DNA from: Rufibacter roseus
GTDB taxonomy: Bacteria; Bacteroidota; Bacteroidia; Cytophagales; Hymenobacteraceae
DNA length: 64,000 bases
Reading direction: 5' to 3'
Assembly (NCBI RefSeq): GCF_001647285.1
Contig: NZ_LRML01000004.1
Span: 124,001 to 188,000 of the forward strand
The position numbers were made by a program, and so were the translations under genes. The notes under the pieces are model-generated. The model was not told the origin of the DNA. It made no database searches and was given only the letters and a program-made list of their open reading frames with translations. Shown in pieces: positions 2,868-44,809 of the stretch. How positions within the stretch are numbered: the stretch's first letter is position 1; the number at the start of each line of letters is the position of its first letter.

Positions 2868-2878
2868 ACCAGACTACC

Positions 2879-3208
2879 TTATAAGGCGGAAGAGGTTTGC
2901 TCTTCGTCGTCAGCTTTACGGAAGTAAACTTTTCCTTCCACAAACTCTTCAATGGCCATGTTGGTAGGCTTGGGCATACGCTCGTAATACTTAGAGATTT
3001 CAATCTGCTCGCGGTTCTCGAATACCTCCTCCAGGTTATCAACGGTAGTGGCAAACTCAGCTAATTTAGAGTTCAATTCTTCTTTCACCTTTACCGCAAT
3101 CTGGTTTGCACGCTTTGAAATGATGGATACAGACTCATAAACGTTGCCGGTTTCAGCCGCCAGGTCAGAGACATTACGGGTAACGATGGATGCTGGTACT
3201 TGTGCCAT
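2879..3208 (-). CDS. rpoZ: RNA polymerase omega subunit (RpoZ/Rpb6 family)
   Basis: A 109-residue protein of the Bacteroidota-type omega family, the small subunit that helps beta-prime folding and RNA polymerase assembly. The helical core 'NVYESVSIISKRANQIAVKVKEEL' style region, with conserved arginine and alanine in 'SKRANQIA', is visible near residues 23-45; the acidic C-terminus is typical. It lies between bamD (27 bp upstream) and coaC, an arrangement common in this phylum, and probably belongs to one transcript running from bamD to porD. Identification rests on length, core motif and synteny. Confidence 0.85.
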   Translation of the reverse strand: MAQVPASIVTRNVSDLAAETGNVYESVSIISKRANQIAVKVKEELNSKLAEFATTVDNLEEVFENREQIEISKYYERMPKPTNMAIEEFVEGKVYFRKADDEEQTSSAL

Positions 3209-14477: not shown

Positions 14478-14981
14478 TAAACCTTACTCTATTATAAACG
14501 CCAAAATCAGGCAGAAAACATGGGGCTAAAGGAAGCTTTTAAATAAAGCACCTCTATTTCCACACATACAATTTGAAACAATACTCACTCAGGCTCATCA
14601 AAATCTTAACGCGGCCTTTCGTTAGAAGCTGGAACGATTTCACAAAAGTCTCAAGCTATTCTGCAGGCGTGGCTAAAAGCAGAGAGCTAACTTCATTATC
14701 TTAATGAGCAACGGGCGAAGTTCGCCATTGGCCACTTTAAAGGCAAATATGTTTAGGCCTTGGAGATGTTATTCTTGATAGTCATCATGTTAATATCTTA
14801 CAGTTAAGTAATTGATCTCGAATGTTCTTAAGCAGCCTTTATGAAGCTTTTTCAGAAGCAGTAATATTTATCAAATTAACAAGGGTCTTTAAGTCCCTAG
14901 TCATTTAAAAATTTATTGTTGATTATATATAGAAATAATATATCTAAATTACTTATCCTTATTACCTATCTCGCTTTTAAA
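14478..14981. other. Gene-free stretch between mutL and addA
   Basis: About 500 bp with no supported gene. Near 14503-14520 there is a short sequence resembling the right half of the 36-bp palindrome, too little to count as a copy. I saw no terminator, RNA gene or integrase remnant. Confidence 0.55.
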
Positions 14982-18308: not shown

Positions 18309-18352
18309 AGTGCTAGTAGCTTCTTTTCCTTTACCAATAACAACACCCTTTT

Positions 18353-24751: not shown

Positions 24752-24755
24752 TATT

Positions 24756-26141: not shown

Positions 26142-26249
26142 GTTCTGACGCAATAGAAGTATTGGCGTATTATAAAGCGGCTGAATATAGTGGGCATTAA
26201 ATGAAATAGGGTAAGCTTATTGGACTTTATTCGCAAAAACATTTATACA

Positions 26250-26420
26250 ATGAAACAAGAAGATAACGAACTGCTCAAGGAGCTTTGTCTCCAATATAAT
26301 GTTTCGCTTGAAATAGTAGAAAAGCTATTGGCTACGGTAAGAGAATATCAATTCAAAGACCGCAGAACAGGTATATATGATGCTCTGAAAGAAATTCTGA
26401 AATCAGACATAAAAAAATAG
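26250..26420 (+). CDS. Small protein of the RM/Dnd-like operon
   Basis: A 56-residue, highly charged protein from the ATG at 26250; the longer frame from a TTG at 26220 is less likely. It is predicted to be mostly helical, with 'LLKELCLQYNVSLEIVEKLL' at residues 8-27 and a lysine-rich end. It sits 3 bp before the DndD-like gene and 108 bp after hsdS. I recall small proteins of this size being annotated as associated with DNA modification systems next to DndD-like genes, but I cannot confirm the family. The tight spacing suggests a structural or regulatory partner of the ATPases. Confidence 0.6.
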   Translation: MKQEDNELLKELCLQYNVSLEIVEKLLATVREYQFKDRRTGIYDALKEILKSDIKK

Positions 26421-26423
26421 GCG

Positions 26424-28409
26424 ATGAAGTTCAATAAGCTCACCATAGAAAATTACAAATCGTTTCAGTTTCCAACAGTTTTCAACTTTCCGCAAAGTAG
26501 CGAAGGCAAGAGCATCTTTTTGGTTGGTGGTATGAACGGTGCGGGTAAAACCTCTATTATGGAAGCCATCAATGTTTGCCTGTATGGAGCCAAGCCCGAC
26601 TGGCTGTACAAGTACATTAACCGCAAGGAATTGAGCAAAGGCAACGCCTATGTCTCTTTTGAACTGGAGCTGGAAACAGGTGAGCATGAAACTATAGTAA
26701 TTCACCGCTCTTGGAGTGCCGGTGTTACAGAAACACCACGATACAAAGATCTGGAGGAAAAACTGGTGGTAGTAAAGGACGGTAAAAGAGTGAGCGTACA
26801 AAATAAAGAAATGTGGCAGGATTTCATTAATGCTACAATTCCAAAAAGTATCACTCAATTCTTTTTCTTTGACGGTGAAAAAATACAAGAAATTGCCGCA
26901 GACGATCATTCAGAAGTACGGCTGCAAACTTCACTCGAAGCGGCTTTGGGCATTCAGTACATTTCCCGATTAGCAAATGATATTTTGTATTTGAAACAAG
27001 AAGAGCGAAAAGGATTTGTAGAAATTTCGGATGAGGACATTGAATACAAAGAAAGCGAACTTAAAAAAGAGCAACGCAAACATCATTCTAAAAAACAAGA
27101 AAGAGACGACCTGAGCCAAGAACTTGAAAACTTTAAAAGTGAAAAAGAAGAAGCACAGGAACGATTCAAAGCCATATTTAGCATTGATGCCGAATCGACG
27201 GAAATAGTTAAACAGAAAGAAAAAAAGCGTATCCAGCTTTCCAACAAGAGCAATCAGTTGGAAAATCAAATTAAAGTACTCAACGATCAGTTCTTACCGT
27301 GGGCTATAGCAGGAAAACTTTTTGATAGTGTAAAGAAACAAATAGAAGCTGAAAGAGAAAGTCAGAAGCAAAATGCCCTATCTGCCAATGCACAAGATTT
27401 AGCCAAACAAATAGTAGATAAATTAGAACTGCCCGAACCCATCATAGAACACCCTTTGACCACGGAGCAAAAAGCAAAGTTAGAAAAACGGGTTCTAGAC
27501 ATATTACAGCAAAACAAAAGTGCCGGGGATATCAAGAAGATTCTAAATCTCTCGGAGCGAGATGCTGCCAAGGTCTTAAACAGAATAGAAGAAATTGAGC
27601 AAAGCGATGTACTTCAGTTAGAGCAACTATTAAAAGAAAAAGAAGAACTTGATTTTGAAATTCGCTCTATTGAAGCTAGCCTGAGCAGTACTGCCTCCGA
27701 AAGCGAGAGAGAGTTGTTTGACACACTACAAAACACCATAGAGAGTTGTCAAACTCAAATAGGTAGAATTTCGGTAAGGCTTTCTAATGTAAATGAAGAA
27801 ATAGTCGTAATTGAAACCCGAATTAAAGACATTGAGCTTGAAATTAACAAGCTATATGAAAAACACAATGTTTCTAAAGAGCGAGCAGACTTCATTCAGG
27901 AATGTGATACCATTGCCAATTTGTTAAATACTTACATTGTAAAGCTCAGAAAAAACAAAGTGAAGGTGCTTCAAGAAAAAACTCTTGAAATGTACAAGAT
28001 GCTTTCCAGCAAATCAGGCTTAATCAAAGATTTAGAAATTAACGACAAGACTTATGAAATAATCATACGTGACAGGAGCGGACACGAAATGAAAAAGTCA
28101 GGGCTTTCTGCCGGAGAAAAAGAGGTTTTTGCTGTTTCTTTGCTTTGGGGCTTAGCTCAAACTTCTCAATTAAATCTACCATTGATTATAGACACTCCCC
28201 TTTCTCGCTTAGATAGTATTCACAGAGACAATATTGTGAACCATTACTTCCCTAATGCAGCAGAACAGGTAATAATCTTATCAACTGACACAGAAGTAGA
28301 TAGTAATTATTTCAAAAACTTAGAACCCCACTTAACAGGTGCAGCTAGGTTGGAATTTAGTCACATTAACGAAATAACGAGTATCAAAGAGGGCTACTTC
28401 TGGAATTAA
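26424..28409 (+). CDS. DndD-like SMC-family ATPase
   Basis: A 661-residue SMC-like protein with Walker A GMNGAGKT at residues 36-43, then a Q-loop stretch 'TQFFFFDGEKIQEIA' near 145-160. A long coiled coil spans about 195-545. The signature motif is 'LSAGEKEVFAVSLLWGLAQ', and 'PLIIDTPLSRLDS' is Walker B plus D-loop. The combination of 'FFFFDGEKI', 'LSAGE..LLWGLA' and 'IDTPL.RLDS.HR' closely follows DndD, the ATPase of DNA phosphorothioation systems. However, no dndA, dndB or dndC genes are nearby. It probably works with the HerA-like protein encoded 12 bp downstream as a motor or sensor on DNA. Confidence 0.85.
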   Translation: MKFNKLTIENYKSFQFPTVFNFPQSSEGKSIFLVGGMNGAGKTSIMEAINVCLYGAKPDWLYKYINRKELSKGNAYVSFELELETGEHETIVIHRSWSAGVTETPRYKDLEEKLVVVKDGKRVSVQNKEMWQDFINATIPKSITQFFFFDGEKIQEIAADDHSEVRLQTSLEAALGIQYISRLANDILYLKQEERKGFVEISDEDIEYKESELKKEQRKHHSKKQERDDLSQELENFKSEKEEAQERFKAIFSIDAESTEIVKQKEKKRIQLSNKSNQLENQIKVLNDQFLPWAIAGKLFDSVKKQIEAERESQKQNALSANAQDLAKQIVDKLELPEPIIEHPLTTEQKAKLEKRVLDILQQNKSAGDIKKILNLSERDAAKVLNRIEEIEQSDVLQLEQLLKEKEELDFEIRSIEASLSSTASESERELFDTLQNTIESCQTQIGRISVRLSNVNEEIVVIETRIKDIELEINKLYEKHNVSKERADFIQECDTIANLLNTYIVKLRKNKVKVLQEKTLEMYKMLSSKSGLIKDLEINDKTYEIIIRDRSGHEMKKSGLSAGEKEVFAVSLLWGLAQTSQLNLPLIIDTPLSRLDSIHRDNIVNHYFPNAAEQVIILSTDTEVDSNYFKNLEPHLTGAARLEFSHINEITSIKEGYFWN

Positions 28410-28421
28410 GAAATTGAAATT

Positions 28422-29954
28422 ATGGCAGATAGACTATATACATCACAGCAAGCAGACGAAATTATAAGCTCTTTAAGAGTTTTAACTAAATTAGACAAAG
28501 CTGTTATTGCGCGAATGGCCTTTTCGTATTCTTTAGTCCAAAATGGCAAGGATGTTAGTTTAAGTACAAACTTTTCAGGAGGCGAAATGAAGCGCCCAAC
28601 TTTTATTGCATCAGATGAAGTACTGATAAAGACATTAATTAGTCAGGTTTACGAAAACGACAGCATAGATGAAAACGAATTCTACAGTAATAAATCTATT
28701 ATCAAAAACCATATAGATAATGGTGCTACTCTCCTTTGGAATGTTTTCAAAAAGAATGGCGAAGACATTAATAAATGGTATACTGAAATAGTAACTGGAA
28801 TTGAATTAAGAGGAGCCAAAACGCTAAAGACAAAAGACCTTGATATTTTTATTGGTCGCAACATTTTGCAGAACAATGAACTGATCATGCACCTAAACGA
28901 CACAACCAAACACGCCAATTCACATTTGGCAATAATGGGAAAACCAGGTGTAGGTAAAACACAGTTTTTATTAAAACTTTTGGCTGACATACGGATTCAG
29001 TCAAACTACGAGACAAACTTCATTTTCTTTGATTATAAAGGGGATGTTGTAGACAATGAGAATTTCATTGATATTACCAGATCAAGAACTTACAGGCTTT
29101 TGCAAAATAATGAAACGCTCCCCATTAGTCCTTTCATTCTGGCAAACTACAAGGAGCAAGACATTCAGCTTTCTGCTAGAGAAAAGGCGGAAAGTTTTGC
29201 ATCTATCAATTCTAAATTTGGTCCGGTTCAAAAAGGTGCATTAACCGAAGCCATCATAGCAGGTTATACCACAAGAGCTTTAATGACTCCAAATCATCCA
29301 TTCCCAGATTTTGGCGATATTCTTCAGATAGCTTTAGCCAATTATGAAGATGAAGGTAAAAACGATGATACACTTATCGAAGTATTACGTGACTTAGCGA
29401 ACTTCAATTTGTTTTGGGCGCACGGTTCATCAGTTCCTCCGATCGAAAAAGTAAGTAACCGAACGATGATCATTGATGTTCACAAAATGCCTGTATTGAA
29501 AGAACTTGTGGGTTATTTAGTTATTGAGAGACTTTACAAAGAAATGGCATCTTTGCCCGACAGTCCAATAAAAGATGGCCGTAGAACAATCAGAACAATT
29601 TTGGTAATAGATGAAGCTCACAACTACTTAGGACAAAAAAACATTTTCCTTGAAAAAATTATAAGAGAAGGACGTTCAAAAGGAATTGTAGTGTTTTTCG
29701 CTTCACAATCTCCATCAGACTATCAGCAGAAGTTCTTCAACTTCCAAGAGTTACTTGAATTTTCATACATATTTCAGTGTGAAGGAGCATCATCCAAAGC
29801 ATTACAAGATATTCTAGGGTGCAGTACTAAAACAGCGAAAGACCTTCAAGCAGAAGTAGCAAGACTTGAGCCGTTTCAAGTGATAAGTAGAAGCAATATC
29901 AAAACCGAGGAGTTCACGAAGTTTGTAGCAGAACCGTTTTATAAAAATTATTAG
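28422..29954 (+). CDS. DndE-like domain fused to a HerA-type ATPase
   Basis: A 510-residue protein. The first 110 residues or so resemble DndE: 'LYTSQQADEIISSLRVLT' at 5-22, 'ARMAFSYSL' near 31-39, and 'IKNHIDNGATLLWNVF' near 93-108, matching the DndE pattern ending in a helix with 'AHINRG'. The remainder is a HerA/FtsK-type motor: Walker A GKPGVGKT at about 173-180, 'FIFFDYKGD', Walker B 'TILVIDEAHNYLG' around 393-405 and an arginine-rich sensor 'IIREGRSKGIVVFFASQ'. HerA motors usually act as hexamers with a nuclease. The nuclease in this operon would be the N-terminal domain of the methylase fusion; that pairing is inference. Confidence 0.82.
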   Translation: MADRLYTSQQADEIISSLRVLTKLDKAVIARMAFSYSLVQNGKDVSLSTNFSGGEMKRPTFIASDEVLIKTLISQVYENDSIDENEFYSNKSIIKNHIDNGATLLWNVFKKNGEDINKWYTEIVTGIELRGAKTLKTKDLDIFIGRNILQNNELIMHLNDTTKHANSHLAIMGKPGVGKTQFLLKLLADIRIQSNYETNFIFFDYKGDVVDNENFIDITRSRTYRLLQNNETLPISPFILANYKEQDIQLSAREKAESFASINSKFGPVQKGALTEAIIAGYTTRALMTPNHPFPDFGDILQIALANYEDEGKNDDTLIEVLRDLANFNLFWAHGSSVPPIEKVSNRTMIIDVHKMPVLKELVGYLVIERLYKEMASLPDSPIKDGRRTIRTILVIDEAHNYLGQKNIFLEKIIREGRSKGIVVFFASQSPSDYQQKFFNFQELLEFSYIFQCEGASSKALQDILGCSTKTAKDLQAEVARLEPFQVISRSNIKTEEFTKFVAEPFYKNY

Positions 29955-32121: not shown

Positions 32122-32880
32122 CTATGCTGCCTGCCTTTGAATGCGTAAAGGGTCTCGGGCTGAAGGCAAATCTTCCCATTGAACCTTGGCAGCTGCTTTG
32201 GCGATCTGCTCCACAATTTTAATATTGACATATTCTCCCCTTCGGTGTTCGTTCCACACCCCCGCAGATAGATTTGTACATTCCGGGATAATATCTGTAA
32301 AAACTGCTGTATCAGTGAACACTCCAGTAGGATCTGCTTCATAGCCCAATCCATGCAAGCCAAACTCATCTGCCAGTGCCACTGCAAACTGGTCGCTGCA
32401 GCACCTCGCTCCTCGCTGGTGTGTTATAATGGAGCCCTCCCCTCTTCTGTCAAAAGCCACTGCCCTTTTGAATTGCGAAAAGAAAAGTCTGTTGGCTCGT
32501 AATGCTGCTCTGCTGCCTACGGTGCCTATCTCTTCTCCTACAAAAAAGTAGTAAGTACCTGGCACACCCTGGCTGATGAGGTACAACAGTATGGTAACAC
32601 CAGCCTTATTGTCTCCTCCCAGAATAGTGGTGCCATCAGTAGCAATGATATCTCCATTGATAACATGGTTTACTTTCTCTCTGGAAAAAGAACAGGTGTC
32701 CAGGTGGGAAGTGAACAGCGTGGAAGACTCACCAACGGTGATGAAATAGTTACCATCCTCATCCTGTTGTATGCCCTCCGGCAAGTGTTGCCTATGAGTA
32801 TATTCGTCTCCATAGGGCACCGTATACTGTGTTAGATTCAGGAAAGTGTTTTTGAAATCGAAGTGTTTAGTTTTAAACAT
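32122..32880 (-). CDS. M20/M28-type metallopeptidase, paralogue 1
   Basis: A 252-residue co-catalytic zinc peptidase-like protein without a signal peptide. Metal and catalytic positions expected for the clan are present: H59 and D61 in 'SHLDT', D90 in 'LGGDNKAG', E116 and E117 in 'VGEEIG', D144 in 'AFDRR' and H212 in 'NEHRRGEY'. It aligns without gaps to the protein at 35574-36332; counting by eye over the first 220 residues gives about 68% identity. It is shorter than most family members, with no lid domain visible. The gene heads a four-gene operon with a 47-bp promoter element at 33158-33204. Substrate unknown. Confidence 0.8.
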   Translation of the reverse strand: MFKTKHFDFKNTFLNLTQYTVPYGDEYTHRQHLPEGIQQDEDGNYFITVGESSTLFTSHLDTCSFSREKVNHVINGDIIATDGTTILGGDNKAGVTILLYLISQGVPGTYYFFVGEEIGTVGSRAALRANRLFFSQFKRAVAFDRRGEGSIITHQRGARCCSDQFAVALADEFGLHGLGYEADPTGVFTDTAVFTDIIPECTNLSAGVWNEHRRGEYVNIKIVEQIAKAAAKVQWEDLPSARDPLRIQRQAA

Positions 32881-33157: not shown

Positions 33158-33204
33158 CAAAGGTACCAGGTTCACTTCTTAAATGGCATTCTTCGCAAGC
33201 TTGT
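33158..33204 (-). promoter_or_regulatory. Palindrome-N29-TACCTTTG promoter, peptidase-1 operon
   Basis: Read on the minus strand: ACAAGCTTGC (one change from the perfect palindrome), 29 bp, then TACCTTTG, an exact TAnnTTTG -7 box. The spacer starts with an A-rich GAAGAAT, as in the sister elements. The leader to the peptidase start is about 270 nt. Confidence 0.7.
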
Positions 33205-33289
33205 AAGAATGTCCGCTTGCGGGAATCAACTTTTGGCGCACCATAATCTTAGCATCTTATTTTTGTAGATAAGCCCTTGAGGCAAAATT

Positions 33290-33567
33290 CACATATTACA
33301 TTTAAAGGAAGCCCATCAAAGACGCTACGGGAACCTTAACAGATGACAAAAGGTGGTATTTGTGTCTGCCTAAGCTGCACTGGAATTCTCTCTTGACTAT
33401 ACAAGTAAGGCTGGCTTCCGGAGGAAAATGGCAATGGAGAAAAAACAGTACAATGCCCTTACTGTTGTCTTGATGCAATCTTGGGTGATGCTTCTGGATT
33501 TCCTGTTACTGAACAGGATTTTATTACTGCAATGAATAAGGCTGGTTTTGGAGGGCAAATAGGCTAA
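33290..33567 (+). pseudogene. Decayed copy of the cysteine-motif gene
   Basis: Translating in pieces gives 'LKEAHQRRYGNLN', then 'CVCLSC', then 'GWLPEENG', 'EKTVQCPYC', 'AILGDASGFPVTEQDF'. These match in order the intact protein at 37886-38200 ('IKDAHRKSYNNLM', 'CCCFAC', 'GWLGEED', 'EQTVQCPYC', 'VLGDSSGFPVSDKGF'). At least one frameshift and three in-frame stops break it. It lies upstream of and divergent from a peptidase gene, as the intact copy does. Confidence 0.8.
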
Positions 33568-33655
33568 ATGTTCTTATTTAACTCTTTAGCTAATCACTCA
33601 ATAGCAAAGCAATACTGCCCGCCTTGTAATTATAAAGGTATATTAGAAATTCCTG

Positions 33656-34702
33656 TCAGTACACCTCTTCTGGTTTATGCGTTCTTGAGAGCTCTTTTTC
33701 ACTTATAAGGTAATAATAATTTGTTTTTTCTTTAATGCATGAGGCCCAAGTACTTTCTATAAGAAATGGATACCCTTCTATTTCAACAGAATTCCAGGCA
33801 TGATTTCCTGCAGGGCGCCCCTCTGCATATCCTTCTATACGGTATGCTTTAATACCTGCTTTCAAACACATTTCTTTAAAAAGATAGCTAAACCCACTAC
33901 AGACTCCCTTATTAGCCTTAAAAGTGGTTTGCGCATCATAAATCTTATAACTATAATCGTAAGATATGTTTTGTACAATCCATATATATATGGCCCGTAC
34001 TTTTTCGAAATCATATTTAAAATCTTTCGTTAAAGCAAAAGCCTGATTTTCAATACTAGATTGTTTCTTCACCATTAAAGCTTTTCTATCAATTTCAGAA
34101 TAATCATAATTCTTAATAAATTCATGGAGCGCTTCTTTATTTGCAAGGTACAACGCTTCTTTTACAGGGTATACTTTTCTATAAGCCGCGACTGTATCTC
34201 CCTGTAAAGCTAAAACGTCTACGAACAGCCTGGAGGCGGCTAAGTTATTTTTGTCAACCGTACTCTCCAGTGTTTTTATTATAAGTTGTTTAAAGTCTTG
34301 ATATTGTGGCTGATTTACAAATTGCTTTGTACTGTCTAAAAGAAATAGCCTTTTATATAATCCTACGGATTCCTTTAAGGAACCTATTTTTTTCAAAAGG
34401 ATACGGCTTGACAGTTTATAGTGGTAGTACCGTACTTCTTTATACAAAGAATACTTCAGCCTTCCCTCTTTCGAAAACCTATTTCTTTCTAAAAGTCTAA
34501 TTTGGTCTAGTACTTTTTCATACTTCCCTCTAGAAAAAAGTTTTTCTGCCTTTTTAAAAGAATAGTCTTCCGAAGCCGCAGTCAGCTGACCAGGACATAA
34601 CAAAACCAGCACAAGCAAAACTACTATGGGCAGCATTACTGTTTCCTTATACAATAAACCAAAAGGATTTCTGTTGGGAATTACCTGATAGTGGAGGGTC
34701 AT
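33656..34702 (-). CDS. Transglutaminase-like exported protein
   Basis: A 348-residue protein. From residue 23 there is a signal peptide ('MLPIVVLLVLVLLCPGQLTA'), then a helical region (about 45-200) and a transglutaminase-like cysteine-protease domain (about 215-330): Cys in 'NKGVCSGFSYLF', His in 'GNHAWNSVEI', and a Glu in 'LIESTW' where the family usually has Asp. The 22 residues before the signal peptide resemble the start of the 324-residue protein at 31210, so translation may begin at either 34702 or 34636; the second gives a normal exported protein. Function unknown. Confidence 0.75.
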   Translation of the reverse strand: MTLHYQVIPNRNPFGLLYKETVMLPIVVLLVLVLLCPGQLTAASEDYSFKKAEKLFSRGKYEKVLDQIRLLERNRFSKEGRLKYSLYKEVRYYHYKLSSRILLKKIGSLKESVGLYKRLFLLDSTKQFVNQPQYQDFKQLIIKTLESTVDKNNLAASRLFVDVLALQGDTVAAYRKVYPVKEALYLANKEALHEFIKNYDYSEIDRKALMVKKQSSIENQAFALTKDFKYDFEKVRAIYIWIVQNISYDYSYKIYDAQTTFKANKGVCSGFSYLFKEMCLKAGIKAYRIEGYAEGRPAGNHAWNSVEIEGYPFLIESTWASCIKEKTNYYYLISEKELSRTHKPEEVY

Positions 34703-35124
34703 TGGTTTATTGATATTTTAGTGTTTACCGGACTAACTAACTTTTTTAACGCAGAAAAGCGAAAAATTATTGAACGCTATAAAGATTCCTGGCCCTGTCC
34801 TCCTCAATACCTGCAATTGCTTACTCCATGGCCCTGAATCAGTTACAAACTAAATCTTTAAATAATACGCAACCCCATTTCTTATACTTTCCTGGGAATT
34901 CTGCGTTTTATGCCTTTCCAATTTATGCCATAACAGAATTTTTCCTGATCTGTCACTATAAATTTACCGGCTCAAAAAGGGAACGCGCAGGAAAGCAGGC
35001 GATAAATACGCGCTCACCGAATTTGTGTACCTACGCACAGGTTTTTTACAGTGTTGGAAGTTTTACAGAAAGTGCACCCGCCTAAATTATAGAGCGCACT
35101 TTCTCCCTATATCATCAACATAGG
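34703..35124. other. Gene-free stretch between the transglutaminase-like gene and peptidase-2 operon
   Basis: 422 bp with no supported gene; short plus-strand frames here look random. A 9-bp perfect inverted repeat AGAAAGTGC / GCACTTTCT (35067-35104, 20-bp loop) lies just after the small helical gene and may end the peptidase-2 transcript, though there is no T tract. Confidence 0.5.
35067..35104 (-). terminator. Weak hairpin at end of peptidase-2 operon
   Basis: Arms AGAAAGTGC and GCACTTTCT, 9 bp perfect, separated by 20 bp, located 21 bp after the stop codon of paralogue B. A T tract is missing, so the terminator role is uncertain. Confidence 0.3.
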
Positions 35125-35526
35125 TTAAACAGCATCTTTTTCAAATTGTAGCGTCTCATGTGTCATGCAGTGCATCATATTGAGCAACCCAATACCGCGC
35201 ATAACCACCTGAAACTGATTTTCATTCTCCAGGCTTTCGTCCTGCATCAGGTCCACCATGATTTTCATCTGGTTTTCCAGCATGCTCTTGAGCTGAAGTA
35301 ATACTGGCACGAAAAGCACATCGGGCATGCTAACTACCGTTTTGCCCTGCTGAAGCGCCTGAAGCAAAATGTTAGTGCATTCGCTTTTAAACCGTACCCT
35401 GTTGCCCACAGGACTGATACTATCGGTGCTATTGATAATTACTTCCCATTCGTGCAAGGCTTTTTGCAGAAGCTCCTGAGCAAGCTGGGACTGCTCATGT
35501 GTGAGAGATAAAGTTAAAGTATTCAT
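35125..35526 (-). CDS. Small helical protein, paralogue B
   Basis: A 133-residue helical protein of unknown function, directly downstream (47 bp) of the second peptidase gene. It begins 'MNTLTLSLTHEQSQLAQELL' and has a Met/Leu-rich C-terminal half. It occupies the same place as paralogue A (31646-32062) in the other module, and the N-terminal helices look related. A constant partner of a peptidase suggests it is a substrate, inhibitor or chaperone of that peptidase, but nothing in the sequence shows which. Confidence 0.65.
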   Translation of the reverse strand: MNTLTLSLTHEQSQLAQELLQKALHEWEVIINSTDSISPVGNRVRFKSECTNILLQALQQGKTVVSMPDVLFVPVLLQLKSMLENQMKIMVDLMQDESLENENQFQVVMRGIGLLNMMHCMTHETLQFEKDAV

Positions 35527-35573
35527 ACCTGTAGAAATTAGAGTGAAAAAATATGGTGAAGAGACATGATAAA

Positions 35574-36332
35574 TTATGCTACCTGGTTATAGTCTATTGG
35601 AATATTGCGATGTGCCGGCAAGCCTTCCCAATTAACCCCTTCAGCGGCTCTGGCTATCTGCTCAAGCAACAGGATATCCACGTACTCTTCTGAAGTATGT
35701 TCGCCCCATACCCCTGAAGACAGGTTCGTACATTCCGGGATCACCTCCACAAAAACAGCCGTATCGGTAAAGACCCCATATGGGTCGGCATGGTAGGCCA
35801 GGCCCTGGTTTAAGAACTGAAGCGAAAGCGCCTCGGCAAACTGGTCGCTGCAGCAACGCCCACACCGTTGATGGGTAACAATGGAACCAGCCTTTCTGCG
35901 GTCAAAAGTAACAGCACGGTCAAATTGGGCGAAAAACGAAGCGTCTGATTTTAATGCGGCACGACTACCCAGGCAGCCCACTTCTTCCCCAATAAAAAAG
36001 TAATAGGTACCTGGCACACGCTTGCTTATAAGATAAAGCAGAATGGTCACACCTGCCTTGTTATCGCCCCCCAATATGGTACTGCCATCCGTGCGGATGA
36101 TGGTGCCATCCAATACATGGCTTACCTTCTTGCGCTCTCTTGAGTAGGTATCCAGATGGGCCGTAAAAAGCGTGGTTGACTCCCCTATTCTGATGAAGTA
36201 GTTGCCGAAACTATCTTTTTGCACACCTGCGGGCAGACAAGGCTCTAGTTGGCTCTCATAACCATAAGGCACAGTATACTCTGTCAGGTTAAGGAAGGTG
36301 TTTTTAAAATCAAATGAATAGTTATTGCGCAT
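35574..36332 (-). CDS. M20/M28-type metallopeptidase, paralogue 2
   Basis: A 252-residue protein, the same length as paralogue 1 and gapless against it. All likely metal and catalytic positions are retained: H59, D61, D90, E116, E117, D144 and H212 ('GEHTSEEY'). The cysteine-rich stretch 'HQRCGRCCSDQF' (about 154-165) has more cysteines than paralogue 1. There is no signal peptide, so it should act in the cytoplasm. It heads its own operon behind the promoter element at 36568-36614. Keeping both active sites intact while diverging by about a third suggests both copies are under selection. Confidence 0.8.
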   Translation of the reverse strand: MRNNYSFDFKNTFLNLTEYTVPYGYESQLEPCLPAGVQKDSFGNYFIRIGESTTLFTAHLDTYSRERKKVSHVLDGTIIRTDGSTILGGDNKAGVTILLYLISKRVPGTYYFFIGEEVGCLGSRAALKSDASFFAQFDRAVTFDRRKAGSIVTHQRCGRCCSDQFAEALSLQFLNQGLAYHADPYGVFTDTAVFVEVIPECTNLSSGVWGEHTSEEYVDILLLEQIARAAEGVNWEGLPAHRNIPIDYNQVA

Positions 36333-36636
36333 ATAAAATTGATTTGGTTTTGGTTAAACAATAATTTAATGACATAGGGGGCCTGTGCGGCTTCGGAAGA
36401 GCCGTAAAACAAAAACACAAAGCCAGAGATAATTATATTAATCCTGCAAAGACTGCAGATACTGTTGCACTAAATTTCCAGTGAAGTGCAGAAAAAAATC
36501 AGGTTAAATGCGGCAGTAAAAGAACAGAGAAGCTCCGACTCCAAACGCCTTATTTATTTTAATAATACAAAGATAGGGTACCCATAATCGCTTTCCATTT
36601 CTTTACAAGCTTGTCGTCTATATTCCGACATCGGGT
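36333..36636. other. Leader of the peptidase-2 operon
   Basis: 304 bp with no gene. It holds the promoter element 36568-36614 and a leader of roughly 230 nt, similar in length to that of peptidase 1. I saw no obvious attenuator or riboswitch fold. Confidence 0.5.
36568..36614 (-). promoter_or_regulatory. Palindrome-N29-TATCTTTG promoter, peptidase-2 operon
   Basis: On the minus strand: perfect palindrome ACAAGCTTGT at 36605-36614, exactly 29 bp, then TATCTTTG at 36568-36575. The spacer begins AAAGAAA. There is no usual TTTG -33 box at the expected place, so an activator may be needed. Confidence 0.72.
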
Positions 36637-37515
36637 TCAAAACCTGGTCCGCAGCCTTTTTACATCGTTAAGAAAAGTCACTACCTGTTGTACTGTAGTG
36701 GTCTCAAGTACCCTTGAGTGGTCGTTAAGCGTCCGGCTGAACTCCAGTGCCGCCATATTGCCAAGCTGCTGCTGTTTCTCCATCACAAAGCCATAGGAAG
36801 CGGCTAGCTGCCTCAACTTCTCTATACTTTCCCTTATCATGTCGGCTACATATACAGCCGTACCATTCAGGGCAAAGCGCCTTCGCTCGTCGTCAGTCAG
36901 CTCCAACTCAAGCACGGTATCCACTTTGATTACTGGCATACAAAATCTATCCTGCACCAAATTATAACTTATGCGCTCCTCCCCACCGGACTCTATTTCT
37001 GAAATAATAGTAACTGTGCGCCTGAAATCTTCGCGAAGTGTCAACAATTGATAACTTTCCCGTTCCTCTATTGGCCTCCCCTCCTTCAGCTCCCGCACCA
37101 CCTGCTCCAAAGGCACCGCCAGCTCTTTTTCAGGAAACATTTTCCTGAAATTATTCAGGTAGCGCAACATGGCGCCAGTTGTGAATCCGTCAGGTTTCTC
37201 CCTGGTAAACCTGCCATTGTTCATGGAATACCCTACGAAGTCTGCCACATGTCCACTCAGCGGACTGCCAGCTCCCCGCAATGGCAGAATATCACTTCCG
37301 CCCCATCTCTCTAAGAAGTTTTCCCAGACCATTAAATACCCTCCTAAGTGGCAATCAAAGATGGATGTATGGTTATCCCCGATATAGCATTTACCCAAAG
37401 GGCGCATCATCCTAAGGCGCAACCTGCTGCATCTGTAGGGGGCATGGTCCAGGATCTCGTGCTGATTTTCCAGGATCAGATCAAAATTGTTTACTAAAGC
37501 TGATATACCGCTCAT
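36637..37515 (-). CDS. Protein of unknown function (292 aa)
   Basis: No family recognised. From the ATG at 37515 ('MSGISALVNNFDLILENQHE') the protein has 292 residues; a second ATG at 37557 would add 14 residues, but a TATCTTTC box overlapping that extension suggests the shorter form. The middle is mixed alpha/beta with 'YIGDNHTSIFDCHLGG' near residues 43-58, and the C-terminal 80 residues are helical. It lies between the second peptidase operon and the cysteine-motif gene and has no counterpart in the first module. Confidence 0.65.
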   Translation of the reverse strand: MSGISALVNNFDLILENQHEILDHAPYRCSRLRLRMMRPLGKCYIGDNHTSIFDCHLGGYLMVWENFLERWGGSDILPLRGAGSPLSGHVADFVGYSMNNGRFTREKPDGFTTGAMLRYLNNFRKMFPEKELAVPLEQVVRELKEGRPIEERESYQLLTLREDFRRTVTIISEIESGGEERISYNLVQDRFCMPVIKVDTVLELELTDDERRRFALNGTAVYVADMIRESIEKLRQLAASYGFVMEKQQQLGNMAALEFSRTLNDHSRVLETTTVQQVVTFLNDVKRLRTRF

Positions 37516-37885
37516 AAGTTTTGCGTAAAAAGTGAAAGATATAAATCCTGGGCCCATGCTATTGGCATAAGCAGCACGGCCTGGTTAATTTTCAATAAAA
37601 ACTGTTAAGCTATTCGCAGTAAACCGCTTTTAGCTTTTTTTCGGAAGAAGCCGCACATTGTCTTGGCACCGATGGAGCTTAAACCCGGTTGCCGTGCCCA
37701 CTGGCACTCTGAATGCTTTTATGAATTGAAAGATGCTACAAGGAGCATCTGTATATGAATTTCATTAAAATTTATTACCTTTCTATCCGGGTATTTTTAT
37801 GGTGCACTTATTAATTTAGCCTGGTCGCACCCTTAGCTTGATCTTTTACTCCATCTCCTTTTAGCCACACAAACAATAGCCAAGC
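37516..37885. other. Divergent intergenic region
   Basis: About 370 bp between the minus-strand unknown gene and the plus-strand cysteine-motif gene. Apart from a possible TATCTTTC -7 box for the former (37531-37538 on the minus strand) and a small 7-bp hairpin AGATGCT / AGCATCT near 37730-37752, I see nothing. Confidence 0.45.
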
Positions 37886-38200
37886 ATGGATAATTATCCT
37901 TATGAGTACATAAAGGATGCACACAGGAAAAGTTATAATAACCTAATGCAGGTAAAAGCCAGTTCAACCTGCTGTTGCTTTGCCTGCCTGGAAGTCTTTA
38001 CCTTATCTGATTTCCCCGATGGCTGGCTTGGAGAAGAGGATCCGGAGAAAGAGCAGACCGTGCAATGCCCCTATTGTGGTATGGATTCTGTATTAGGTGA
38101 TTCCTCCGGTTTTCCGGTTTCAGACAAAGGCTTTGTTGAAACAATGAACGAGATATATTTCGGAGAACCTTTATCTCAGTTTTCCCAAAACCCTGATTAA
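37886..38200 (+). CDS. Cysteine-motif (putative zinc-binding) small protein
   Basis: A 104-residue acidic protein of unknown function. Two cysteine pairs, in 'CCCFAC' (about residues 29-34) and 'CPYC' (about 62-65), are spaced like a zinc ribbon, separated by a 'FPDGWLGEED' loop. A decayed copy of the same gene lies at 33290-33567, where the CPYC motif and the 'GDxSGFPV' segment are still readable. In both cases a minus-strand peptidase gene follows to the left. No signal peptide or membrane segment. It may bind nucleic acid or a protein partner; function unknown. Confidence 0.7.
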   Translation: MDNYPYEYIKDAHRKSYNNLMQVKASSTCCCFACLEVFTLSDFPDGWLGEEDPEKEQTVQCPYCGMDSVLGDSSGFPVSDKGFVETMNEIYFGEPLSQFSQNPD

Positions 38201-38301
38201 GTCCCTTATTTTAGGCAAACACAATTTATGCTAACCGCTATTCCTTATTGACACAATAGCCCTACTGTTACAGAAAGTATATTGCGCAACAAGAAAGATA
38301 G

Positions 38302-39231
38302 TTACCCTAGTAAACTGCTTAGGAAGTTCTCAACCGCAGCCTGGCTGTCAAGTCTAGAAACACCTTTCTGTTGAATTAAAGCCTTGTTGCCGGCAAATGC
38401 TGTTTCACTTGTTTCATTTGCTTGCGTCGGACACAGGCAGGCAAGTGATTTTTTTTGTTTTAGTGCATAATCTACTGTATGCCTGGTGCCGCCCGTCAAA
38501 CCTGTTTCCAACACTACCACTCCACGACTCAAACCTGTCTGTATCCGTTTTCTTAATTTGAATGAACTCCTGGATGGATTTGTCCCAAAGGAGCATTCGC
38601 TGATCAACAAGCCTCCGGCTTCTACTATGCGATTGGCCAATGCAACATTTTCATTTGGGTAAATGGCATGCAACCCACCCGCCATAACAGCAATGGTAGG
38701 CTTTCCATGCTCTAAAGCCGCTTCGTGCGCGATGGTATCGCAGCCTAATGCCAACCCACTCACTATGGCGAACCCTGCTTCTGCAACAGACTCCGAAAAT
38801 CTTCTGCCTTCCATCTTTGTATAGGCAGATGGCTCCCTGGTTCCAACTACGGCAACTGCAGGGTTTTCCAGTGCAGCCAGATTTCCTTTGAAATGCAATA
38901 GCAATGGTTTATCAGGAAGGAAGATCATCATTGAGGGGTACCCCTCCTCCAGATAAGATATAATCTTTACTCCATTCGCTTCTGACCGTTGCATGAACTG
39001 CTCGCTCTTTTTGCGAGCTTTAGCAACTGCATCAAGAGTTGCTAATTTTAACCGCGGGTAATATTTCTTTACTTCTTTAAGTAGTTTAACCACCCCATCG
39101 TCAGTTGCAGGGAAGGTTACACCTCGGTCTAGATACGCTATAATTGCATTGATAGCAGCAGGACCAATGCCAGCTAAGTTTTCCAGTAAAAGAAGCTGTG
39201 CTACTGAAATTACAGGTTTCTGTTTTGTCAT
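38302..39231 (-). CDS. dprA: DprA/Smf-like DNA-processing protein
   Basis: A 309-residue protein with the DprA Rossmann domain: 'AVVGTREPSAYTKMEGRRF' near 128-146, 'IVSGLALGCDTIAHEAAL' near 155-172, 'MAGGLHAIYP' near 179-188 and 'FKLRKRIQTGLSRGVVVLE' near 219-237. The N-terminus has a helix-hairpin-helix-like segment ('LENLAGIGPAAINAI'). It lacks the C-terminal winged helix of many full-length DprA proteins. DprA binds single-stranded DNA and loads RecA in transformation; related proteins also occur in defence islands. Its promoter element ends 4 bp before the ATG, implying a leaderless mRNA. Confidence 0.85.
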   Translation of the reverse strand: MTKQKPVISVAQLLLLENLAGIGPAAINAIIAYLDRGVTFPATDDGVVKLLKEVKKYYPRLKLATLDAVAKARKKSEQFMQRSEANGVKIISYLEEGYPSMMIFLPDKPLLLHFKGNLAALENPAVAVVGTREPSAYTKMEGRRFSESVAEAGFAIVSGLALGCDTIAHEAALEHGKPTIAVMAGGLHAIYPNENVALANRIVEAGGLLISECSFGTNPSRSSFKLRKRIQTGLSRGVVVLETGLTGGTRHTVDYALKQKKSLACLCPTQANETSETAFAGNKALIQQKGVSRLDSQAAVENFLSSLLG

Positions 39232-39235
39232 AGTG

Positions 39236-39282
39236 CAAAAATCAGCATTATGACGGCCAGAATGAATTCTTTACAAGCTTGT
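39236..39282 (-). promoter_or_regulatory. Palindrome-N29-GATTTTTG promoter, dprA
   Basis: On the minus strand: perfect ACAAGCTTGT (39273-39282), 29 bp starting AAAGAAT, then GATTTTTG (39236-39243). The box has G for T at its first position. The dprA ATG follows after 4 bp, so the transcript would start at or next to the start codon. Confidence 0.68.
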
Positions 39283-39393
39283 GAGGCTTGGCTTAGTTTT
39301 GTAATTGAGCTATTTTTAGCTGGTTGAATAGAGCTCTAAAGGATAATGCATATAGAAAATGTATAGTTTTGATATTCAGACCAATAAATAAAA

Positions 39394-39430
39394 ACCCCTA
39401 AAGTTTTTTATGCTTACAAGCCTTAGGGGT
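39394..39430 (-). terminator. Terminator of the 415-residue gene
   Basis: Arms ACCCCTAA and TTAGGGGT (8 bp, 21-bp loop). On the minus strand the second arm runs into TTTTTATTT. It lies 50 bp after the stop codon at 39480. Confidence 0.6.
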
Positions 39431-39479
39431 GTAAATATGTATTTAATACAATAGCATCAGGTATGCTACTACTTCACAC

Positions 39480-40727
39480 CTACTTTTTCAATTTAGCAGG
39501 AAAAACAGTTGTGCCGTAAATGTCGCTATCACATGTTACTAATGACCGATCTAGGTTGATTTTATATGGCTCTTTATCTGCTCCTAATATTATGTAATAA
39601 CTGGCAGCATCTTGCCCTATAACGTTGATGAAGCTAGCTTTAATATTTGACCTCTTTTCAGACATTGAGTTGCTAGTCCTTTTAATTAGAGCAGTTACAC
39701 TACTTTCAATCTTATTCTTTATTTTTACCTCGACTTCATTATATCTTTCTTCAATAGCAGCTTCTACAGTCTTAGAATCTGTCCCTTTTAACTTTAATTT
39801 TATTGCTGCTATTTCTGCATTATTTACTGTTGGAATATTATTATTAAGTTGTTTATAAATTTCTTCGATTTCTGTTCGGTAGTTAGGCAAATCCTCATTT
39901 TTTATACCATCCGGATACATTAGGTAAAAGAGAAAAACGGTTTTTTCCAAAGGAGTTAATCTAATTATTGAATTTCTATAATCTCTTAGAACAATCTCAT
40001 TCTCTTTAGTTATATATAATCTACTTGGCCGAGGTTTATGATGTTGTTTATAAAGTAGTTTTCCTCTAATCTCCTCAAATAAAGAAAATGCTTGATTAAG
40101 TAGCTTGTCATTTTTTTTATTTAAAGTAAAATCGTCTAAACATACGGGGCAAATATCAGCAGTTCTAAGTTTCAAACTAATTTGAGATTTAGTCTCGCAA
40201 AAGTCATTCATACAACCTAAGGCCTCGTAGTGCACATGTTTTAATTTCTCATCGATTGTTTGATACACCGTTTTCTGTATAACCTGTGAGGTAACTAAAT
40301 AAGTTATCGGGTAAATGGCAGGAGTATTAGCCAAATAATATTCCCAATCCGCGGTATGAGCAAAAATATTATTTGTTTCGTCAGCGTATGAAGCAAACCA
40401 GTTATTTGTATTGTAATGAGGTGTAAGAAGTACAACAAAATCTTCTTTCCCCAATTTATTTTCTTTCCTATAAACGTCACATAGCTTAAAAAAATCTTCC
40501 CACTCCAAAAAGGTTGTGATCTCGTCAAGCTTAAATTGCGATTCAGGTGACAAGAAATCCTTAGAGGATGTGGCTAGGATAGCGTTCTCCTGTTCCCACA
40601 TTGTTTTGTGTGCCTCTTTTAAAGCCCCATGAAAAGTCAAAGGACCAGGCTTAGAATTTAAAAGCTGCAATACTTGTTGGTAATCTTCTTCAAGGAAGTA
40701 GGCAGACCGGATAATATGTACGTTCAT
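39480..40727 (-). CDS. Unknown protein with zinc-ribbon-like cysteines (415 aa)
   Basis: No family recognised with confidence. Residues about 95-135 contain 'TPHYNTNNWFASYADE' and 'IFAHTADWEYYL'. Around residues 170-200, 'GCMNDFCETKSQISLKLRTADICPVC' style cysteines (two pairs: CMNDFC and CPVC) look like a zinc site. The C-terminal half is mostly helical and lysine-rich, with 'RLTPLEKTVFLFYLMYPDG' near 265-283. The gene is AT-rich and stands alone, with its own terminator, between dprA and the 66-residue gene. It has no palindrome-type promoter. It could be a phage- or defence-related protein; that is only context. Confidence 0.65.
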   Translation of the reverse strand: MNVHIIRSAYFLEEDYQQVLQLLNSKPGPLTFHGALKEAHKTMWEQENAILATSSKDFLSPESQFKLDEITTFLEWEDFFKLCDVYRKENKLGKEDFVVLLTPHYNTNNWFASYADETNNIFAHTADWEYYLANTPAIYPITYLVTSQVIQKTVYQTIDEKLKHVHYEALGCMNDFCETKSQISLKLRTADICPVCLDDFTLNKKNDKLLNQAFSLFEEIRGKLLYKQHHKPRPSRLYITKENEIVLRDYRNSIIRLTPLEKTVFLFYLMYPDGIKNEDLPNYRTEIEEIYKQLNNNIPTVNNAEIAAIKLKLKGTDSKTVEAAIEERYNEVEVKIKNKIESSVTALIKRTSNSMSEKRSNIKASFINVIGQDAASYYIILGADKEPYKINLDRSLVTCDSDIYGTTVFPAKLKK

Positions 40728-40831
40728 AAAATGTTAATAATATTAGTAATACAATATATGTTGTATCTATCTTATTTTTGAGTTTTAAAAAAAATATCAT
40801 TGACTTTTAGGTCTTATTAAGAAAAGGAAGG

Positions 40832-41032
40832 CTAAGCTGCCGCCTTCCTGCCTGTGAATGGCAACCTTGCCAGGTGCAATTCACCTTTTACATATGGCTG
40901 TTTCTTTCGTGTAAGGTAGTTGGTAATAGTGTACTCATTATAATCAGGATAATACTCCAAGAAACCTTTCAAAGAGCTGAACACTTCCATTTTGCCTGAT
41001 TCACGCCAGGTAGCAACAATTACATTCTTCAT
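40832..41032 (-). CDS. Small basic protein (66 aa)
   Basis: A 66-residue basic protein of unknown function. The pattern 'EVFSSLKGFLEYYPDYNEYT' followed by 'TNYLTRKKQPYVKGELHLARLPF' resembles short proteins common in Bacteroidota mobile elements, in which a helical part precedes a basic 'RKK-P-x-KG' segment; DNA binding is possible. Its reality is supported by a perfect palindrome-N29-TACCTTTG promoter (41095-41141) with a 60-nt leader. It could be the regulator of the palindrome regulon, but nothing proves that. Confidence 0.6.
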   Translation of the reverse strand: MKNVIVATWRESGKMEVFSSLKGFLEYYPDYNEYTITNYLTRKKQPYVKGELHLARLPFTGRKAAA

Positions 41033-41094
41033 AATAATAAAAATTAAGGTTACACATTAGGAGCAGCGCCAACCGCCTGCCCTTGGATCTGAAA

Positions 41095-41141
41095 CAAAGG
41101 TAATGGATATACCTGCCTAGGCCGTTTTTATACAAGCTTGT
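41095..41141 (-). promoter_or_regulatory. Palindrome-N29-TACCTTTG promoter, 66-residue gene
   Basis: On the minus strand: ACAAGCTTGT (41132-41141), 29 bp starting ATAAAAA, TACCTTTG (41095-41102). Both key parts are perfect. Confidence 0.72.
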
Positions 41142-41303
41142 AGAGAAAGGCACATGGTAGAAAAGAAAAGACTTTCTATAGGCATACCACTACCTGTTAA
41201 GTGAAACCCGGGCCACCAAACTGCCTTATTGGTTAGCATCCGTTTCTTAAGGGTACAGGATTTATGGCCTTTTCTATTATTCAAGAAATGACCGTCAACC
41301 TTA

Positions 41304-41350
41304 ACAAGCTTGTAGAGAAAAGTATAAGTTCTGTTCTATGTGCAACTTTG
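41304..41350 (+). promoter_or_regulatory. Palindrome-N29-CAACTTTG promoter, 328-residue gene
   Basis: On the plus strand: ACAAGCTTGT (41304-41313), 29 bp starting AGAGAAA, CAACTTTG (41343-41350). The box has C for T at its first position. It fixes the downstream ATG at 41401 as the start, because the upstream ATG at 41338 lies inside the promoter. Confidence 0.68.
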
Positions 41351-41400: not shown

Positions 41401-42387
41401 ATGCCCAAAATACCTTCTCAAAAAACCCAATCTGATGTACAATCGTTGGCTGCTATGCTACGTGAGCGGCTGAAAACCGGCAGAAGCCTGGTCTACTTTG
41501 CTTCAGGACGCATAGTCCGTAAAGAGTACTATTCCCTGCCCTACGACCATATTGTGCTGGTTGATTATAACTTCCGCTCTACATTTGCTGTGCGGGGTAA
41601 GGTTATAATTATTGGGATGACTGCCCTACAGGCTACTGCTGCCTTCACGGCCGCCGGTGTTAAGTTTGACGCCTTTGTATGTATAAATGAGGGGCTAAGT
41701 GAAGGGGGCGGTTACTATCCTATTAACGGAAACTGGAGCATGGGCACCATCCTGCCTATACTGAAAGACACTTATCTGCACCTTGCCTGCCCCGGCTACT
41801 ATGGCCGGACCCGCTGGTGTGAGAAGATGTTTAACTTGCCTCATCAGGTATCTTTACTGACTGCTACCGATCCGGATTATATTGACCCGGCCATTTTCTC
41901 AGAGTACAGCCGCTACGGCAAAGAAGCTGGTGTCTGGCGTGTAACAAAGCAACCCGGCAAGGCTGTGTCTTTCAAGGTGGGCAATAGAACAATTACCCTG
42001 CAGCGCAAAAACATCTGGGACGATTATAACCTATTGGATTCCCTAATGGTGCGGTGCTCACCCAGTGAGGAAAGGCAACTGCAGCAAATGGCCCCGAAGG
42101 CAAAGCCGCTTTACCGTCCGAGGTACTACCGAAGCGAAGAGCAGGACGCTAACTTCGAGTCGATTCTAGACTTTTGCAATCAGCACCAAATAAGTAAACT
42201 GGGCCTTACCCCCTGGCTGGGTGGCAACTACAACCGCTTCATGAACTATCTGAAAGATAACGAAGCGCGCTTTCCCTATCCACAGGAACTATACCTGTAC
42301 CACCTGCACCACAACGACTACCAGCAACTGTACCAGCAGGCCGGCGAAAACAGCAGGATACCCCGTCCTGTTGTAGAACTTCCTTAG
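41401..42387 (+). CDS. Protein of unknown function (328 aa)
   Basis: No family recognised. The start is the ATG at 41401 ('MPKIPSQKTQSDVQSL'). The first 200 residues look like an alpha/beta fold with 'LVYFASGRIVRKEYYSLPYD' near 31-50, 'IVLVDYNFRS' near 52-61 and 'VIIIGMTALQAT' near 68-79, somewhat like a nucleotide- or sugar-binding Rossmann-type protein. The C-terminal third is aromatic-rich and helical, ending 'YLYHLHHNDYQQLYQQAGE'. It is expressed from the palindrome promoter and followed 90 bp later by a small hydrolase gene, so the two may be cotranscribed. Confidence 0.65.
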   Translation: MPKIPSQKTQSDVQSLAAMLRERLKTGRSLVYFASGRIVRKEYYSLPYDHIVLVDYNFRSTFAVRGKVIIIGMTALQATAAFTAAGVKFDAFVCINEGLSEGGGYYPINGNWSMGTILPILKDTYLHLACPGYYGRTRWCEKMFNLPHQVSLLTATDPDYIDPAIFSEYSRYGKEAGVWRVTKQPGKAVSFKVGNRTITLQRKNIWDDYNLLDSLMVRCSPSEERQLQQMAPKAKPLYRPRYYRSEEQDANFESILDFCNQHQISKLGLTPWLGGNYNRFMNYLKDNEARFPYPQELYLYHLHHNDYQQLYQQAGENSRIPRPVVELP

Positions 42388-43704: not shown

Positions 43705-44610
43705 TTATTTGCCCGGAAAACCAGACGCAATCAAGGTCACTCGGATATTGTCCCCAAGATAAGGATCAGTTCCGTGACCAAATATTACCTCTGCCTCTTC
43801 TCCCGCTTTTGCCTGGATTGCATCCGTTATTTCTATCAACTCCTCCATATCCAATTCGGTTTCTTCACCTGACATAACGGAGATCAAAATCTTTCTTGCA
43901 CCAGACAGCTCTTTGTTCAGATTACCATTAAATCCAAGGGCTTCCTCTATTACACAGGCAGAGCGCCCCGGTCCTGAGGCCACAGCAGTTCCCACAAGGG
44001 CCTCGCCCGCGTCGGCCAACACATAACGAACATCCTGCAAATCAACATTCACCTCCGTTTGTACATCCTGAAGATGTACAATTGATTGGATTGTTGACAT
44101 TATAACTCCCCTTGTCTGCTGAAGCACCATCTTGGAATTGGGTTTTTCCTTTGTACCCAAGGAAGTATCAGGAAACAAGCTAAGAATAGAATCATAAGAT
44201 TTTCTTATTTCGAGCAGGCTTTCGTCAGAAGGCAATGCGTTGGCAGCATCCCCAGGGGAAAAGGGAAGGCACACAACACCAATGGTGAGTACCCCCAGCT
44301 CTTTGGCTTTCTTGGCAATCAATGGGGCCGCCAACACTGCACTGCTATGGCTAGAATCAATAAGCACGAAAATTATTTCAGTGTCCTCTTCCAAAAATGC
44401 CTGAACATCCGGCAAAACATTTTTGGTGACAATTTTACCGCTCAAGTATGCAGGCTCAAGTTTAAGGACAGGAATTTTGTAAGGCTTGTTTCCTGGCACA
44501 ACTACTGAGGTCGAGTTCAGGGGCGTAGATTCACTAGTTACTAAAAGCTCCCCGTGTAAGCCTTCTTCCACATCAGGAAAATTACTACCTGTTACGATTA
44601 ACTTGATCAA
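43705..44610 (-). CDS. Divergent FtsZ-like protein lacking the tubulin signature
   Basis: A 301-residue protein that follows the FtsZ pattern over most of its length. 'AAPLIAKKAKELGVLTIGVVCLPF' style homology spans residues 94-118, 'VLADAGEALVGTAVASG' lies near 203-219, 'LSGARKILISVMSGEE' near 240-255 and 'GDNIRVTLIASGF' near 287-299. The GTP-binding loop GGGTGTG is replaced by SHSSAVL at residues 87-93, and the N-terminal 'GVGGGGxNA' loop is missing. So it probably cannot bind GTP as FtsZ does. It may associate with FtsZ or have another role. A GCAAGCTTGC site lies 190 bp upstream. Confidence 0.75.
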   Translation of the reverse strand: MIKLIVTGSNFPDVEEGLHGELLVTSESTPLNSTSVVVPGNKPYKIPVLKLEPAYLSGKIVTKNVLPDVQAFLEEDTEIIFVLIDSSHSSAVLAAPLIAKKAKELGVLTIGVVCLPFSPGDAANALPSDESLLEIRKSYDSILSLFPDTSLGTKEKPNSKMVLQQTRGVIMSTIQSIVHLQDVQTEVNVDLQDVRYVLADAGEALVGTAVASGPGRSACVIEEALGFNGNLNKELSGARKILISVMSGEETELDMEELIEITDAIQAKAGEEAEVIFGHGTDPYLGDNIRVTLIASGFPGK

Positions 44611-44762
44611 TGGCGTATTTGAGTTAATGATTTGAACCTACACTTAATATATGCCTTACACTCTGCCTTGGCAAGGTATAAGCCTTTAATGTGCTTTTAT
44701 GTTAGCTTGCCTCAGAGAATAAATTGGTGCCTCCAAAACTTGAAAATGACAAGAACTACTCT

Positions 44763-44809
44763 AAAAGAAGGGCAGCCAAATTCCTTCATTGAGTTTTCTG
44801 CAAGCTTGC
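44763..44809 (-). promoter_or_regulatory. Weak palindrome-N29 element upstream of the FtsZ-like gene
   Basis: On the minus strand: GCAAGCTTGC (a palindrome with both outer bases changed), 29 bp starting AGAAAAC, then CTTCTTTT, which keeps only TTT of the -7 box. It is about 150 bp upstream of the FtsZ-like start. It may be a degenerate member of the same family. Confidence 0.3.

Follow-up and report, generated by a model that had tools for sequence, protein, structure and literature searches.

Why should five promoters within 8.2 kb of Rufibacter roseus DNA carry the same palindrome at exactly the same distance from the -7 box, and which protein reads it? The window considered here, i.e., the whole stretch of 64,000 nucleotides that was analysed (assembly GCF_001647285.1, contig NZ_LRML01000004.1, positions 124,001 to 188,000), holds five copies of an element composed of the palindrome, exactly 29 bp and a TAnnTTTG-like box. 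We consider it likely that the palindrome is the site of a dimeric activator which replaces the -33 contact, the activator most likely being p415, a protein of 415 residues encoded within the same cluster. An earlier note on this DNA had already placed the five elements, and its coordinates are right, since a box was found exactly 29 bp behind each palindrome on the strand it gave; a candidate sixth element is listed after them:

33158..33204, minus strand: site 1, promoter of peptidase 1, ACAAGCTTGC-N29-TACCTTTG
36568..36614, minus strand: site 2, promoter of peptidase 2, ACAAGCTTGT-N29-TATCTTTG
39236..39282, minus strand: site 3, promoter of the dprA/ShosA-like gene, ACAAGCTTGT-N29-GATTTTTG
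41095..41141, minus strand: site 4, promoter of the 66-residue gene (p66), ACAAGCTTGT-N29-TACCTTTG
41304..41350, plus strand: site 5, promoter of the 328-residue gene (p349), ACAAGCTTGT-N29-CAACTTTG
44762..44809, minus strand: candidate degenerate sixth site, before the FtsZ-like gene, GCAAGCTTGC-N30-TTCTTTTA

The palindrome is exact (ACAAGCTTGT) at 36605, 39273, 41132 and 41304 (four copies) and has one change (GCAAGCTTGT) at 33195. The boxes found at 29 bp were, for sites 1 to 5 in order, TACCTTTG, TATCTTTG, GATTTTTG, TACCTTTG and CAACTTTG; three of the five fit TAnnTTTG exactly, with GATTTTTG and CAACTTTG one base off. The box of site 3 ends 4 bases 5' of the ATG, so that a leaderless transcript may be formed there. 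The sixth element is likely a degenerate site: its counterpart in genome G145 is a good one (locus L070, 14244, minus strand, N30, box TATCTTTG), the FtsZ-like genes behind the two being 48% identical.

Primary-sigma promoters of the Bacteroidota combine the -7 box TAnnTTTG with a TTG (-33) normally located about 20 bp upstream of it. All five 29-bp spacers lack a TTG and with it the usual -33 contact, and the box begins 34 bp downstream of the palindrome centre. The A-rich start of the spacer, which the earlier note had described, holds in all five sites, and the consensus over sites of several genomes is RCAAGCTTGY followed by a spacer of 29 or 30 bp, RAA-rich at its start, and TAnnTTTG.

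The genome-wide scan that the earlier note had called for (39 contigs, 5,117,794 bases) found the exact 10-mer at seven places, four of them in the window; two of the three outside lie inside predicted open reading frames (ORFs) and none of the three has a box at 29 bp. The full pattern matched five times at zero or one mismatch, always at the five window sites, and three times at two mismatches, while with up to three mismatches there were 70 matches vs 28 for the reversed pattern. Within the window, RCAAGCTTGY-N28..31-box was found six times vs a mean of 0.013 and a maximum of 1 in 300 dinucleotide shuffles, the sixth match being the dprA palindrome read in reverse (TATTTTTA at 28 bp), which was excluded from the site count. 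On its own, the palindrome is no rarity in the window when one mismatch is tolerated (7 copies vs 3.7 expected). Searched alone, without the box, ACAAGCTTGYRAA occurred at 29 places in 10 genomes that had been picked for already having sites. A loosely defined box looked for at spacings of 10–59 from 31 site orientations stood at 29 bp in 19 cases, at 30 bp in three and elsewhere in three, and was missing in six; the 22 cases at 29/30 bp include six addA orthologues and three window sites and are not all independent. The opposite picture, foreseen by the earlier note as the one that would speak against it, i.e., abundant palindromes without a preferred spacing, was thus not encountered. The background of such pattern scans is appreciable: two further ones gave 35 matches vs 13 and 49 vs 7 for the reversed pattern, and genome G012 had two one-mismatch matches 10 kb apart, one of them within a 476-residue ORF, and no p415.

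Before orthologous genes the element was found again in Rufibacter and Pontibacter, and it extends to other Cytophagales families, sometimes at 30 bp; its presence in other genera and families had not been foreseen by the earlier note. Sites precede p349 in five genomes (the window included) and the peptidase in four, with differing spacers. In Rufibacter SYSU D00344 the region between p349 and p415 holds one palindrome that is flanked on either side by a 29-bp spacer and a TAnnTTTA box, towards two divergent genes. At a spacing of 30 bp a site heads an operon with an HDAC-like gene in G191, G186 and G189 and precedes a UvrD helicase with a PD-(D/E)XK nuclease domain in G191; others stand before a 219/216-residue gene (G191, G186), an ADP-ribosylglycohydrolase and a 113-residue gene (G191), and an addA-like gene (G186). 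Subsets of the island genes (those for 324-, 127- and 133-residue proteins, the peptidase, the 306-residue protein, a transglutaminase-like protein, the dprA-like protein, p415, p66, p349 and a hydrolase) were grouped together in G145, G186, G191 and G137; neither a dprA-like nor a p66 relative was found in the stretches read from G186, and no peptidase, dprA-like or p66 relative in those from G137. The core addA of Pontibacter represents a single-site case. Among the 30 loci examined (the gene is present in 50 genomes), the palindrome was found at 29 bp in seven, an exact CTAA-N5-TTAG in eight and both in none, while TAnCTTTA was present in all 30.

A search of 390 Cytophagales genomes with the pattern at 27–30 bp gave 89 places in 61 genomes, the reversed pattern 16, which means that some of these matches are due to chance. 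Site clusters stood out in G385, G514, G242 and G269. Outside the family, 17 stretches from 13 genomes were opened, where several matches lay inside ORFs. In G514 a site was located directly behind a gene of the p415 family, and in G332 one preceded a VWA-like gene followed by p415.

In the window, the gene in question stands behind the one headed by site 4, which by this position is probably the promoter of both:

39480..40727, minus strand: p415, proposed palindrome-binding activator, 415 residues
40832..41032, minus strand: p66, 66 residues

This candidate binder had not been foreseen by the earlier note. The p415 protein has no Pfam match, including none to receiver, WYL or M54 domains, and sequence profiles of the PDB gave nothing credible. 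According to the AlphaFold model, its N-terminal domain appears archaemetzincin-like, aligning to archaemetzincin-type peptidases, and its C-terminus appears to be a winged helix of the OmpR/PhoB type (matches include BaeR, SaeR, CosR, GlnR, PhoB, ToxR and CadC). The catalytic HExxH is missing from all 30 full-length p415 ORFs (27 distinct). Literature searches on archaemetzincin together with helix-turn-helix, with Bacteroidetes transcription factor, or with bacteria and VWA returned nothing, and a search on CAAGCTTG in Bacteroidetes gave, among the matches listed, no title on promoters.

Full-length p415 (profile search, E < 1e-100) was found in six of the 204 genomes of the family, with weak, partial relatives in six more, and all six had at least two sites in one island. 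Five had already been known for clustered sites; the sixth, G189, then showed two at 30 bp, one of which heads an operon containing p415. In the order set, the association of p415 with motif-bearing genomes, partly circular for the seven genomes that supplied profile rows, gave p values of 0.007 (any match) and 1.4e-4 (two or more) with the profile-row genomes left out. Furthermore, 10 of 26 additional p415 loci, fetched by profile, had RCAAGCTTGY at 29/30 bp before a box, vs a shuffle mean of 0.005 and a maximum of 1 in 200; the sites of L278 and L279 were already known, L284 belongs to a genome with known sites, and L281–L283, as well as L289 and L290, are mutually close relatives. In two loci of one genus (L292, L294) the corresponding position is occupied by GCAACGTTGC, also at 29 bp. 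The same order, i.e., a site, then a 215–217-residue gene with a DxSGSM motif, then p415, was seen in L278, L280–L283, L289, L290, L292 and L294; of three DxSGSM genes tested against Pfam VWA, one scored above the cut-off, one just below it and one had no match. Fold, gene position and distribution together make p415 the best candidate binder.

A mechanism can be proposed in which the dimeric activator, sitting on the palindrome about one helical turn upstream of the normal position of the -33 contact, would stand in for this contact and recruit RNA polymerase carrying its ordinary primary sigma, by which the TAnnTTTG box would still be read. An activator replacing the -33 contact beside a -7 box would explain the 29 (or 30) bp rule, and a dimer centred 34 bp upstream of the box, in promoters with no -33 element, fits an activator touching RNA polymerase directly. 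The modelled winged helix of p415 would bind the palindrome as a head-to-head dimer, the N-terminal domain, devoid of HExxH, might serve as a sensor (a guess), and gene order suggests that p415 probably acts back on its own operon of site 4, p66 and p415. The small local regulon with an ordinary -7 box, as claimed in the earlier note, is supported by these data, and its dimeric activator at a fixed upstream position agrees with the geometry, i.e., the lack of TTG in the spacers and the two-sided palindrome of SYSU D00344.

Several observations limit these proposals. As to the feedback, the 104-bp gap between p66 and p415 could house a promoter of its own. Proteins of the two site types have different recognition helices, yet the helix also varies widely among the common-site proteins, and therefore covariation proves nothing. 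In six Pontibacter genomes the addA site persists although the C-terminal domain of p415 has no match there. Finally, many p415 genomes have no matching site, so either the specificity varies or the sites lie outside the stretches read.

The alternative that survives best accepts the palindrome-activator promoter as real and makes p415 merely a target of another regulator, e.g., a WYL-domain activator like PafBC/DriD or an unnoticed factor. It is unlikely in our estimation, and it draws on a WYL/WCX gene located directly upstream of the site and the addA-like gene in G186, on the six addA-site genomes just mentioned, and on L105/L188, G189 and the VWA-p415 loci, where the site precedes p415 or the operon containing it, as would be expected for a target too. 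However, the WYL protein of G186 had no match (E <= 0.001) in G174 and G160, which keep the addA site, and the palindrome was present in none of seven other WYL loci (L112–L118); moreover, it is p415 that recurs with the sites across families, other neighbours having not been screened systematically. The p66 product, presumably resembling a small DNA-binding protein, was rejected as the binder: its relatives occur in just three of 204 family genomes and are missing from the site-bearing G137 and G186.

Much less probable is an SOS operator that has diverged into the palindrome and is recognized by a paralogue of the non-canonical LexA repressors of Bacteroidetes. PMC8565304 reports diverged motifs among LexA paralogues, with CTAA-N5-TTAG as the motif of Hymenobacteraceae, and the Pontibacter addA genes have this box in some species and the palindrome in others. 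In contrast to such an operator, the palindrome is a different dyad with no N5 spacer, its fixed spacing to the -7 box and the missing -33 contact suit activation, and the candidate protein is another one; besides, the whole window, the 150 bp around each of the five sites included, contains no exact CTAA-N5-TTAG. That the cluster arose by chance, or that one promoter was duplicated together with its gene, can be practically dismissed: the two peptidases are paralogous, so their two sites may share descent, but the other three genes come from different families, the spacers differ, shuffles gave about 0.01 matches, and conservation in orthologous promoters across genera already contradicts it. 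A viral origin of the element was also rejected, as 22 IMG/VR contigs had one match each, judged likely chance.

Compared with known systems, p415 would share with the OmpR/PhoB-type regulators (including the one-component ToxR and CadC) the fold of the winged helix and a site adjoining the core promoter. It differs in having an archaemetzincin-like N-terminus where no receiver domain was found, and in its proposed site, a 10-bp palindrome, while the sites of OmpR/PhoB-type proteins are usually direct repeats. With the archaemetzincins (M54) it shares the modelled N-terminal fold, in contrast to which it lacks HExxH and a Pfam M54 match and is fused to a winged helix. PafBC and DriD are WYL-domain DNA-damage activators of DNA-processing genes outside SOS; p415, for which a similar activation is only proposed, has no WYL match and a different fold.

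Separate archaemetzincin-like genes with HExxH are located near the islands of G191, G145 and G189, and a degraded one in G137 (L066 12942-13556, assigned to M54 by Pfam; L070 12447-11914; L277 7226-7888; L187 ~2654-3104). The p415 island of G189 (L276–L277) also contains PP2C-like, Ser/Thr kinase-like and FHA-like genes, as judged by eye.

The other members of the island in the window are the following:

32122..32880, minus strand: peptidase 1, paralogue of peptidase 2
35574..36332, minus strand: peptidase 2 (phrog_4191 peptidase; weak PepT/M28 similarity)
36637..37557, minus strand: 306-residue gene, conserved island member without a palindrome site of its own
37626..37721, minus strand: SAM-I/IV riboswitch aptamer preceding the 306-residue gene
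38302..39231, minus strand: DprA-family gene (Pfam DNA_processg_A; best PADLOC match ShosA)
41401..42387, plus strand: p349, the 328-residue gene, 77-78% identical in three relatives
43705..44610, minus strand: FtsZ-like gene (Pfam FtsZ_C) behind the candidate sixth site

SAM-I/IV aptamers (Rfam RF01725, above the gathering score) precede the 306-residue gene in four genomes and p66 in G145 and G191 (L070 4478-4573 and 9614-9709, minus strand; L069 9787-9883, minus strand; L066 12315-12411 and 14702-14798, plus strand); in the window, p66 has the palindrome promoter in place of the riboswitch. A SAM sensor is unexpected on genes with no known role in methionine metabolism. Five records of uncultured phages, 635–735 kb long, contain stretches with 49–61% identity to peptidase 2, the 61% belonging to LR756504 (huge phages), while the 328-residue protein had no match in phage records. 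The leaders of five peptidase genes, 227–277 nt long, had no clear common structure by eye, no folding having been run. The island is adjoined by a defence region (window 21932-29954) with a Type I-like methyltransferase gene followed by DndD- and DndH/HerA-like genes, and with what looks by eye like a specificity-subunit gene in between. A second addA-like/addB-like pair, also recognized by eye, occupies window 14981-21220; no palindrome site was seen by eye at its addA-like gene (~14981), the G186 relative of which has a palindrome promoter.

Judging from the annotations of targets in several genomes (UvrD/PD-(D/E)XK helicase-nucleases, the DprA/ShosA-like protein, ADP-ribosylglycohydrolase and peptidases), the response may be one to DNA damage or to invading DNA. 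The earlier note had joined dprA, the peptidases and the other genes in a single response. Its regulon is supported, and one common DNA response is less secure. The dprA-like gene best matches ShosA (PADLOC, 1e-69) and, with 179.4 bits, falls below the 191.15 cut-off of the DprA equivalog TIGR00732 in NCBIfam.

Tentatively, and with doubts that we would not play down, p415 may represent a one-component activator family not described before, joining a dead archaemetzincin sensor to an OmpR-type winged-helix reader. Such activators would replace the -33 contact via RCAAGCTTGY at 29–30 bp and control islands that respond to DNA damage or invasion, with the active archaemetzincin found beside it in some genomes as a possible sensing partner. 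A promoter code is here matched to its candidate reader in several Cytophagales families, and, if true, a role in transcription would fall to a dead peptidase fold. Testing the prediction is easy, as the site, its spacing and a natural site variant with ACGT for AGCT at its centre are all available.

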